In this document: piece by piece, positions 16,037 through 18,431 of the stretch
How the letters are laid out: each line of letters opens with the position of its first letter
Numbering within the stretch: position 1 is the first letter of the stretch
Assembly (NCBI RefSeq): GCF_001807485.1
Contig: NZ_KV789173.1
Coordinates: 1-64,000, forward strand
Origin: Corynebacterium sp. HMSC08A12
GTDB taxonomy: Bacteria; Actinomycetota; Actinomycetes; Mycobacteriales; Mycobacteriaceae
Length of the DNA: 64,000 bases
Reading direction: 5' to 3'
Program-made: the position numbers and the translations under genes
The notes under the pieces: model-generated
Told to the model about the DNA's origin: nothing
The model's database searches: none
Seen by the model: the letters and a program-made list of their open reading frames with translations, nothing else

Positions 16037-16558
16037 ATGGCCGAGAACCAGACTCGCTGGCTGACCCAGGAATCTTACGACCGACTGAATGCAGAGCTGA
16101 CGGCTCTGAAGGAGAACCGTCCGGTGCTGGCAGCCGAGATTAACGAGCGCCGCGAAGAGGGCGACCTCAAGGAGAACGGCGGCTACCACGCAGCCCGCGA
16201 GCAGCAGGGCCAGGAGGAGGCTCGCATCACCTACCTGGAGGAACTGCTGGATAACGCCACCATCGGTGAGGCTCCGCAGGAGTCCGGCGTGGCACTGGTT
16301 GGTTCCGTGATCCACGTCTACTACGACGGCGACGAGGACGATAAGGAGACCTTCCTGATCGGCACCCGTGGCCTGGAGTCTTCTAACCCGGACCTGGAGA
16401 CCTACTCCACCGATGCTCCGCTGGGTGCGGCCATCGTCGGCGCCAAGGTCGGCGAAACCCGCGAGTACCAGACCCCGACTGGCGATACTGTATCTGTGAC
16501 GATCGTGGCAGCTGAGCCTTACGACCCAGACCTGGACGTTCCGCGCGCGGAGCAGTAG
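16037..16558 (+). CDS. greA: Transcription elongation factor GreA
   Basis: The 173-residue factor rescues backtracked RNA polymerase by stimulating cleavage of the nascent RNA 3' end. The N-terminal coiled coil (about 8-85) includes the acidic tip segment [23 protein letters not shown]. The C-terminal FKBP-like domain ends with [28 protein letters not shown] (16026-16030) precedes ATG 16037. Gene order mca, DUF4307, greA is the mycobacterial one. A strong terminator at 16692-16722 is the first clear one downstream. Confidence 0.95.
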
Positions 16559-16691
16559 TTCCTGCCGGTTGATCTGGGCTTTAGCTGGAGTGGCTGGGCT
16601 TTAGCTGGGCTAGTTTGCGGCTGGCTGGGCTTGCCCGGGCTAGTTTGCGGCTGGGCTTTTAGCTGGGGCTGGCTGAGCCGGTTGCATTTAT

Positions 16692-16722
16692 GAAGGGCGC
16701 CTGCGGGCGCCCTTCTTGTTTT
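16692..16722 (+). terminator. Intrinsic terminator downstream of greA
   Basis: GAAGGGCGCC (16692-16701) pairs with GGCGCCCTTC (16706-16715), followed by TTGTTTT. Confidence 0.8.
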
Positions 16723-16820
16723 CCTCTGCCTTGCGGGCCTCCCCCCTGCAGGGTCCAATGCCACCCCGGCTGCACTTTTCCCACCCAGGCAGCGCCCTGT
16801 GCGCCCCCTCGGAGGGTTAA

Positions 16821-16973
16821 ATGTCGGAAAAGTTGCAATTTGTTATTGGGAGACATTCTCACTTACCTAAACTTGCAGGTCAGAGCGTTTTGGTATTCAC
16901 GCATCGATAGCAGGAATTTTAGTTTTGCAACTTTTCCGACATCTAGGCCTGAGAACTGCAATTTTTCCGACAT
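16821..16973. repeat. Inverted repeat family ATGTCGGAAAAGTTGCAA (three copies)
   Basis: One forward copy lies at 16821-16838, and two reversed copies at 16925-16942 (TTGCAACTTTTCCGACAT) and 16957-16973 (one T inserted). They could fold into long hairpins. The ends share TGTCG with the neighbouring array. Confidence 0.6.
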
Positions 16974-17050
16974 TCTCCCGTCCCGCACTCCCCTTTTCTC
17001 TACCCCGCCATTCCCCTTAGCCCCACCCTGAAAGAGGTTAAACCTCCAGA

Positions 17051-17345
17051 TGTCGCCAGATCGAGAATACGCAGGGGGAAGTGTCGCTAGTTCGGGAATA
17101 CGCAGGAGGGAACCCCGCCAAATCAGGGCAATACCGGGCTGGATGTCGCTAGAACGGGAATACATTCTTGATAACTATTCTCAACTATAAGAAAATGCAG
17201 GTCAGAGCGCTGCGCTTTTGTCAGGCTGATTGGTCGCGCCCGCGTATTCCCGATCTAGCGACATCTGTCCATGTCCACGCCCGCGTATTCCCGATCTAGC
17301 GACACTTCCCCCTGCCGGCACCCGCGTATTCCCGATCTAGCGACA
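17051..17345. repeat. Facing array of TGTCGCTAGATCGGGAATAC repeats
   Basis: Forward copies start at 17051, 17082 and 17144, with a decayed one near 17113, on a 31-bp period. Three reversed, mutually identical 23-bp copies occupy 17241-17263, 17282-17304 and 17323-17345 on an exact 41-bp period with unrelated 18-bp spacers. The two halves face each other across about 78 bp. No associated gene or protein is visible. Confidence 0.75.
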
Positions 17346-17460
17346 TTTCCCCCCCTTAGCTGCGAAACCTCCCGCATACAGACAGCAAAATTCCCCGCCC
17401 TAGCGGCAATATCCCCCGCACAAGAGCAGCCAACTCCCCCTCTCCGCACACCGGCAGCAG

Positions 17461-17490
17461 AAAAGGGCTCCCGGTAAACCGGAAGCCCCT
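17461..17490 (-). terminator. Intrinsic terminator of the BI-1 gene
   Basis: On the minus strand GGGGCTTCCGG pairs with CCGGGAGCCC around TTTA, followed by TTTTCT. It lies 36 bases past the BI-1 family stop codon. Confidence 0.75.
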
Positions 17491-17525
17491 CAACTAACAG
17501 CGCCCCAGCGCTAGCTCCTAAAGCG

Positions 17526-18431
17526 CTAGTCCCTGAAGTAGGACAGCAGGCGCAGGATCTCGGTGTACAGCCAGACCAGGGTGACGGCCAGACCCAGTGC
17601 CACGCCCCAAGCCATCTTCGACGGAGCACCCGCGCGGACCAGACGATCCGCCTGGTCGAAGTCCAGCAGGAAGCTCATTGCTGCAATGCCGATGCAGAAC
17701 AGGGAGAAGATGATAGCGATCGGACCACCGTCACGCAGGATGCCTGCGGAGCCCGTAACCAGTGCAAACACCAGGTTGCCCAGCGCCAGAACCAGGATGC
17801 CGATCATGGCGCCCACCAGGAAGCGAGTGAACTTCGGAGTCACGCGGATAGCACCGGTCTTGTACACAAACAGCATGCCAATGAACACACCAATGGTTCC
17901 CAGAACCGCCTGGGCGATGAGCATGCCGGCGTCAGTATCACCAACCGCAGCACCAGACAGCAGGAACGTAAAGCCACCAACGAACAGACCCTCGAAGGCC
18001 GCGTAGGTCAGCGTGACCGGCGCGGAGTCGTACTTCTTGCCGAATGCAGAAACCAGAACGGCGATCAGGCCACCGATCATGCCGACGAAGGTCAGGATCA
18101 TCGCCAGGCCGGGGTTGCTCAGGCCAATGATGAAGTTCACCACTGCCAGAGCGATGATCACGGCCAGCGTGATACCGGTCTTGGTAACAACGTCATCGAC
18201 AGTCATCGGACGGTCGGCGCTGCCGGCCTGGCCGTAGTTGGCTGCGTCCTGCATGCCGTAACCCATAGCGGCGGTCTGTACACCGCCGTGAGCGGAGGTC
18301 GCGTAGGGGTTCATCCCCTGCTGGCCATAACCGCCCTGCTGGCCGTAGCCACCCTGGTTGCCCTGTTGTGCGAACGGGTGCTGGCCCTGGTTCTTGGCCA
18401 GCGACCCCATGAACGGGTTCGAGCTCTTCAT
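17526..18431 (-). CDS. Bax inhibitor-1/YccA family membrane protein
   Basis: This 301-residue protein has a Gly/Gln-rich cytosolic start (QQGNQGGYGQQGGYGQQGMNPYA) and then seven predicted membrane helices between about residues 80 and 300. The conserved BI-1 features MAWGVALGLAVTLVWLYTEILRLLSYF and LLDFDQADRLVRAGAP are present. Family members form a pH-sensitive calcium leak in some bacteria, but the role in actinobacteria is unknown. The start is ATG 18431 and the gene is followed by its own terminator. Confidence 0.85.
   Translation of the reverse strand: MKSSNPFMGSLAKNQGQHPFAQQGNQGGYGQQGGYGQQGMNPYATSAHGGVQTAAMGYGMQDAANYGQAGSADRPMTVDDVVTKTGITLAVIIALAVVNFIIGLSNPGLAMILTFVGMIGGLIAVLVSAFGKKYDSAPVTLTYAAFEGLFVGGFTFLLSGAAVGDTDAGMLIAQAVLGTIGVFIGMLFVYKTGAIRVTPKFTRFLVGAMIGILVLALGNLVFALVTGSAGILRDGGPIAIIFSLFCIGIAAMSFLLDFDQADRLVRAGAPSKMAWGVALGLAVTLVWLYTEILRLLSYFRD

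Follow-up and report, generated by a model that had tools for sequence, protein, structure and literature searches.

A dispersed 120-bp intergenic element with facing terminal sites as a candidate site of protein assembly in the Corynebacterium jeikeium group

Between positions 17051 and 17345 of the stretch of Corynebacterium sp. HMSC08A12 DNA analysed here (64,000 nucleotides, hereafter the window), copies of a short sequence point towards one another across a gap in which a simple gene caller found no gene, as the first-pass annotation had stated. Two convergent genes flank the array; judging from their translations rather than from a family search, we take these to be greA and a Bax-inhibitor/YccA-like gene. 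What kind of element does this arrangement represent, and is it confined to this site? The rightward copies previously described at 17051, 17082 and 17144 were confirmed, with 2, 1 and 1 mismatches to a 20-mer, respectively, as were the three leftward copies, which are all exact, lie 41 bp apart and share an identical stretch of at least 23 bp. A further rightward copy, described as decayed, is a weak case: the possible site (17113..17132, +), at the 31-bp position between those at 17082 and 17144, agreed at 9/18 positions, a score equalled by 2.3% of random window positions (P 0.023). The spacers had been called unrelated, which is not entirely so: 11 bp (CTTCCCCCTGC) beside the second right-hand copy are the exact reverse complement of left spacer sequence (GCAGGGGGAAG) and sit within a 43-nt inverted match of 88%. 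Such an inverted match between a right and a left spacer suggests copying between the facing arms.

A discrete unit within the array, a second unit nearby and the spread of both through the genome had been overlooked. The inner facing pair delimits an element of exactly 120 bp (17144..17263, +), termed type 1, that consists of a left site, an asymmetric core, a variable spacer and an inverted right site. The left inner site, TGTCGCTAGAACGGGAATAC (17144..17163, +), is followed by a partly symmetrical AT-rich stretch at element positions 34-50 (17177..17193, +), where the family tends towards TTTgCA-N5-GCAAAa as judged by eye and where this copy is degenerate. The central conserved motif, GCAGGTCAGAGCGCT (17197..17211, +; element positions 54-68), corresponds to the family version GCAGGTCAGAGCGTT. 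It is succeeded by a spacer of constant length (17212..17243, +; positions 69-100), whose bases are barely conserved past the first positions, and by the right inner site (17244..17263, -). Outside this core, an outward left site (17082..17101, +) lies 62 bp from the left inner site, and the outermost left site (17051..17070, +) is found 31 bp beyond it. The outward (17285..17304, -) and outermost (17326..17345, -) right sites each follow at a 41-bp step.

On the greA side lies an element with other ends (TGTCGGAAAAGTTGCAA) and a related core at the same offset, also of exactly 120 bp (16822..16941, +) and termed type 2, accompanied by an outward type-2 site at a 31-bp step (16956..16972, -). 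Terminator-like hairpins occur on both sides of this locus: one resembling an intrinsic terminator between greA and the elements (16692..16715, +), and one belonging to the convergent gene on the far side of the array (17464..17489, -; coordinates read off the sequence), which was missed by the stricter of two terminator scans. An Rfam scan of positions 16500-17600 returned no match overlapping the elements and two sub-threshold matches at 17454-17520.

The 2.21-Mb genome (30 contigs) was searched with the 20-mer. At up to 3 mismatches it occurs 70 times, in forward orientation in 39 cases and in reverse in 31, and its reversed control pattern not once; the array is therefore not a chance arrangement, and it represents one locus of a dispersed family. 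A near-universal rule governs the clusters, namely a facing pair with outer edges 120 bp apart and optional same-pointing copies outside. Of these type-1 sites, 67/70 lay no more than 260 bp from a 120/121-bp core, and the remaining three, as judged by eye, adjoin a core of 120 bp in which one end is damaged; a damaged copy, a core with one mutated end, lies at C28:163237. Using the open pattern TGTCG-N110/111-CGACA, 41 places were found compared with 4 for the control. After two places without any end type were left out, 39 elements remained (26 type 1, 11 type 2 and 2 type 3), 37 of them 120 bp and 2 of them 121 bp long. In a set of fetched loci, 109 of 113 distinct elements measured 120 bp and four measured 121 bp. 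Two type-2 sites on contig C12 had no 120-bp partner that could be found.

Each element has two facing sites of approximately 20 bp (TGTCG...) around the asymmetric centre GCAGGTCAGAGCGTT, and the central motif TGCAGGTCAGAGCG recurs in the type-2 element at 16822-16941. A profile built from 49 dissimilar elements had information in the ends (positions 1-18), in CGTTAnTG (20-27), in the AT-rich stretch described above (34-50) and in the centre (54-68), after which approximately 30 positions carried almost none before the inverted end. Terminal inverted repeats and uniform size are features shared with miniature inverted-repeat transposable elements (MITEs). Neighboring elements less than 700 bp apart had the same orientation in 31/31 pairs when orthologues were included and in 10/10 pairs within the HMSC08A12 genome, and across the chromosome both orientations occur. 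Contigs C6, C18, C19, C20 (at both ends) and C29 end within approximately 500 bp of an element, so that arrays may break the assembly. On contig C28, a gene for a HicB-like protein lies between two element arrays (L035:1538-2991).

The sites outside the cores proved to be placed at regular distances. For each outward site the distance to its neighbor on the inner side was taken as the step, and units containing N or having spacers at least 60% identical were removed, leaving 43. The steps were 31 bp (7), 41-43 bp (8), 53 bp (1), 61-64 bp (22), 72 bp (1) and 82-85 bp (4). The best-fitting period was 10.4 bp (R 0.91), with 0/20,000 random sets scoring as high, and the HMSC08A12 genome by itself gave R 0.85 (n = 28), again with 0/20,000 random sets as high. 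Common descent may account in part for the equal steps, although the spacers are now unrelated, and the 43 units therefore fall short of full independence; in general, the extra outward sites carry mostly unrelated spacers. A single HMSC08A12 step of 110 bp, containing N, was out of phase. The sites are hence direct repeats at whole helical turns, as in phased, iteron-like clusters. Between whole neighboring elements phasing at 10.4 bp was not clear (R 0.37; p 0.09), and a hidden site midway in the 62-bp units was not convincing, with a mean of 6.1/18 at offset 31 against 4.1-6.3 elsewhere.

Among 60 orthologue pairs, both members measured 120 bp in 58 and 121 bp in two. The set leans towards equal lengths, since a pair was accepted only at an identity of at least 75% without gaps and patterns of fixed length had been used to find several of the loci. 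The type-1 20-mer sites of HMSC08A12, found without any length pattern, obey the same 120-bp rule. Flanks of the orthologue pairs had approximately 4.9 gap openings per 100 bp on either side, and the nine gap openings within core alignments compensated one another in length. Spacer identity in these pairs (84%) was near that of the flanks (77 and 82%). Mismatches per site over 58 pairs were 0.056 and 0.049 for the ends, omitting ten positions forced by the search, 0.078 for the central motif and 0.170 for the spacer; bases of the sites therefore change approximately three times more slowly than those of the spacer. A similar comparison of outward units (site identity 0.912, spacer identity 0.814, 90 pairs) was set aside because the pairs had been picked by spacer identity and many of the 31-bp pairs were non-orthologous.

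The two ends of an element are predicted to form a strong RNA hairpin (z of -4.6 to -5.9 over four strands). Left/right covariation was not significant for type 1 (p 0.08 overall; one position p 0.011), where ends agreed slightly more than shuffled ends, nor for type 2 (p 0.85), and for this reason the ends look like protein sites rather than paired strands. Together with the fixed core and the helical phasing, this favors the protein-binding cluster among the readings originally offered for the array. A further likeness offered, to REP/BIME repeats, was not supported: the 20-mer is not palindromic, left and right ends show no significant stem-like covariation, and the associated transposase (RAYT), suggested as a check, had no match to PF01797 (Y1_Tnp) in any of 8 genomes, with the control positive in 5/14 known genomes.

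By the simple gene caller none of the 39 elements lies inside a gene, and nine of them are by a contig end, which leaves one neighbor unassigned; being extragenic and in many copies, they resemble REP/BIME repeats in this respect. The elements form 29 clusters, of which 23 have both neighbors, and a hand tally from simple gene calls placed 12 between convergent, 10 between tandem and 1 between divergent genes. Compared with the 53 adjacent gene pairs of the window (9 convergent, 36 tandem and 8 divergent), convergent contexts were in excess (Fisher p 0.004). The 14 window gaps of at least 150 bp, a small base for comparison, comprised 1 convergent, 4 divergent and 9 tandem cases. At the 12 convergent clusters a simple terminator scan found a left hairpin in 2 and a right hairpin in 4; elements may sit at weak terminators, or the simple scan may miss terminators. 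Pfam domains were matched in 44 of 50 flanking proteins (6 had none), many being housekeeping enzymes or ribosomal proteins, and within these 50 neither a recombinase nor a candidate cognate binder was recognized. Clusters in G080, a related genome, showed a slight origin-side bias (KS p 0.036, 22 clusters) that was not relied on, and its two largest empty arcs, summed, were not significant (p 0.12).

The array locus was next compared among related genomes. The nearest named relatives of HMSC08A12 are Corynebacterium jeikeium strains, and the genomes aligned here include G080, G081 (C. jeikeium Cj47444), G100 (C. jeikeium Cj37130), G176 (C. sp. ACRPH) and G174 (C. sp. ACRQK). The type-2 element at 16822-16941 was kept in 6/6 orthologous loci. 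Its outer 31-bp site was present in HMSC08A12, G080, G081 and G176 and absent from G100 and G174, where a clean 31-bp loss could not be upheld as the flank was too diverged to size the gap. The type-1 element was found in HMSC08A12, G080, G081 and G100 and not in G174; the G176 contig stops before this position. Both outward left sites recur in G080 and G081, and the one at 17082 has a degenerate copy in G100. Among the four orthologous loci with the core, the two 41-bp right units occur only in HMSC08A12, whose right arm exceeds those of G080 and G081 by 82 bp and that of G100, with a 121-bp core, by 81 bp. This agrees with the recent amplification proposed for the right-hand copies, the two extra copies being lineage specific.

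Within the genus, the strict pattern found the element in 7/242 genomes, and a profile search that scored up to 14 candidates per genome recovered the same seven, a weak partial match in G241 being excluded from the count. Pattern counts against control were 41/4 in HMSC08A12, 38/3 in G080, 38/7 in G081, 42/6 in G100, 25/5 in G176, 9/6 in G174, 7/5 in G082 and 0/3 in G241. No 120-bp peak was found in either G082 or G241 in a 200-kb sample of each. The single profile match in G082 lies beside rpsQ (L104:2323-4060), in a stretch 92% identical to HMSC08A12 compared with 76-78% for the genes neighboring the array. Recombination or introgression is a possible source on this sequence evidence, and ribosomal genes are conserved in any case. 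G241 carries a different dispersed sequence, a near-perfect hairpin of approximately 52 bp (TGTTCGACCAAAACGCC...; L162, L164 and L166, e.g., L166:5793-5890), with six copies within 200 kb.

Beyond the genus, no match at E 1e-5 was obtained in 250 other genomes of the family (31 genera, many genomes being of the same genus) with up to 14 candidates scored per genome under strict filters, by which weak matches can be lost. A scan of named sequences gave 50 stretches, 39 from Corynebacterium, 1 labelled Brevibacterium and 10 from other organisms; of these 10, only L066 (122 bp) passed a 13-of-20 end match, and it had none of the end types. An earlier, stricter pattern had no match in the named sequences. 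The contig labelled Brevibacterium sp. HMSC07C04 (L071) carries the element and shares 97.5% identity with the rpsQ locus of HMSC08A12 across 1249 bp; mislabelling or contamination of a Corynebacterium record is the probable explanation. Origin from a phage or plasmid was rejected, as there was no plasmid match and the 20-mer was absent from IMG/VR; a 41-base match occurred in two records of one Lactobacillus phage, and one 121-bp pattern match (L146) was obtained.

Identity between copies bears on when the family spread. Among 723 dispersed pairs in HMSC08A12, whose members lie on separate contigs or at a distance of more than 10 kb, identity never exceeded 77.5%, whereas orthologue pairs average approximately 90% and the closest pairs within the genome are local copies. 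This ceiling implies that the spread looks old and that recent change is local; from the sequences, such change looks like tandem copying, gain or loss of sites, and a difference of type between genomes at two loci. At the latter (L040, L075 and L132; L121 and L113), type 1 and type 2 occupy a common slot in the same orientation in different genomes, by in-place replacement or differential loss.

An old, dispersed family with inverted ends, a short fixed unit and intergenic positions, without a match in most genomes of the genus, could consist of fossil copies of a MITE-type transposon, and the combination of several end types with a related core is reminiscent of transposon ends drifting apart. 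We consider this unlikely. At a ceiling of 77.5% no trace of recent spread is visible. Type-1 ends were not seen on any longer element, and no type-1 site in HMSC08A12 stands away from the 120-bp cores, though the two type-2 sites on C12 lack a partner; Y1_Tnp was the transposase family searched. Of 313 element-by-foreign-locus comparisons, 33 were flagged as possibly element-free; four loci were aligned in detail (three, plus the greA locus), and in none was a clean insertion accompanied by a short duplication seen, though intergenic flanks align poorly. Constraint in place, on length and on sites, would moreover be unexpected for fossils, and an ancient MITE origin is compatible with a present function. 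The single conserved asymmetric centre, the helical register of outer sites and the shared orientation of neighbors could instead describe attP-like sites. An integrase would then bind the outer TGTCG repeats as its arm-type sites, and the crossover would fall in the central WGGTCAGR, between imperfect inverted arms. Such a role is improbable, since the presumed crossover varies (GTTCAG, GGTTAG, GGTCAC), the elements take both orientations across the chromosome and no recombinase was recognized among the 50 flanking proteins scanned.

Two further proposals were weighed. The element might be a docking site at which gyrase or another topoisomerase relieves supercoils between convergent, highly expressed genes, for which BIME-2 in E. 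coli is an analogue. Gyrase footprints agree with how long the conserved motif is and with its place at the centre, 12/23 clusters lie between convergent genes and some neighbors (ribosomal L9, L17 and S17) belong to kinds that are highly expressed, but the enzyme is universal while the element occurs in few genomes, and several end types argue for specific binders; we give this proposal little credence. Least probable, and very much so, is a REP/BIME-type hairpin acting in RNA, by stabilizing mRNA 3' ends or by termination. It would suit the location of most elements downstream of genes and the strong predicted fold, yet despite that fold it is disfavored by the lack of significant covariation between left and right ends of a type and by a fixed length for which a hairpin has no need. 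At the array locus, furthermore, the elements already lie between two terminator-like hairpins and overlap no Rfam match. The form of this proposal that depends on RAYT was rejected on the ends, which do not covary significantly, and on the empty PF01797 search of 8 genomes.

The array is best explained as belonging to a family of protein-assembly elements that is dispersed and vertically inherited in the C. jeikeium group, a sequence-based reading to which we assign a probability of roughly 0.55. The host, a Corynebacterium of the skin type, carries approximately 40 chromosomal copies of this 120-base element. The evidence supports a selected, multi-site element that is predicted to bind protein. 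Each TGTCG site would be taken by a predicted DNA-binding protein, or by paralogues specific to each end type, on one face of the helix. The two end-bound proteins would bracket the core, to which that protein or another would bind, and outer sites would lengthen the predicted nucleoprotein complex. On this reading the element would be a clade-specific site of nucleoprotein assembly, often between convergent genes, with a probable architectural or insulating role.

What the complex does is suggested less firmly, by position. As elements lie mostly downstream of genes and often between convergent ones, it may serve less as a promoter switch than as a boundary, whether architectural, insulating or transcription-blocking; against this, 10/23 clusters lie between tandem genes. 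More tentative still is a hitherto undescribed chromosomal boundary system in which clade-specific proteins would form helically registered complexes on approximately 40 elements, act as insulators or as barriers to supercoils or transcription at gene ends, and have arms that change by whole turns. Many dispersed bacterial repeats have been taken as selfish hairpins or left unexplained. Here, fixed core length, whole-turn spacing and unpaired ends give a quantitative signature, read from sequence, that argues for a multi-protein complex held in place over species divergence. If true, the family offers a system for finding a new architectural or insulating protein and for testing how bacteria separate convergent transcription.

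No description of a 120-bp element of this kind was found in a literature search that included abstracts and mostly left subscription papers outside its scope. ERIC sequences are palindromic elements of enterobacteria. These enterobacterial intergenic repeat units measure 127 bp (PMC2759123). The present element is similar in its size near 120 bp, inverted ends, intergenic position and conserved interior, but differs in showing no significant covariation between its ends, in combining several end types with one core and in having outward sites in helical register. REPs are palindromes of 20-40 bp, many with a GTAG or CGTC tag, and BIMEs are REPs in alternating orientation, the GTAG types going with RAYTs (PMC2817692, PMC3733652). 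Intergenic repeats in composite clusters are common to both, and protein binding of BIME/REP is reported in the same sources (PMC2817692, PMC3733652). Unlike these, the 20-bp sites here are non-palindromic, neighboring elements point in one direction and no RAYT was found in the 8 genomes searched. Correia elements of Neisseria, at 100-150 bp, have inverted ends, intergenic positions and a protein-binding interior and behave as MITEs. The Corynebacterium element matches their size range, ends and position and, by prediction, their protein-binding interior, and differs in that neither recent spread nor an insertion duplication was seen. Iteron and attP arm-site arrays serve as control sites of one replicon or one integrase. 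With these the element shares direct repeats of approximately 20 bp in helical register beside a fixed core, and is set apart from them by its approximately 40 dispersed copies.
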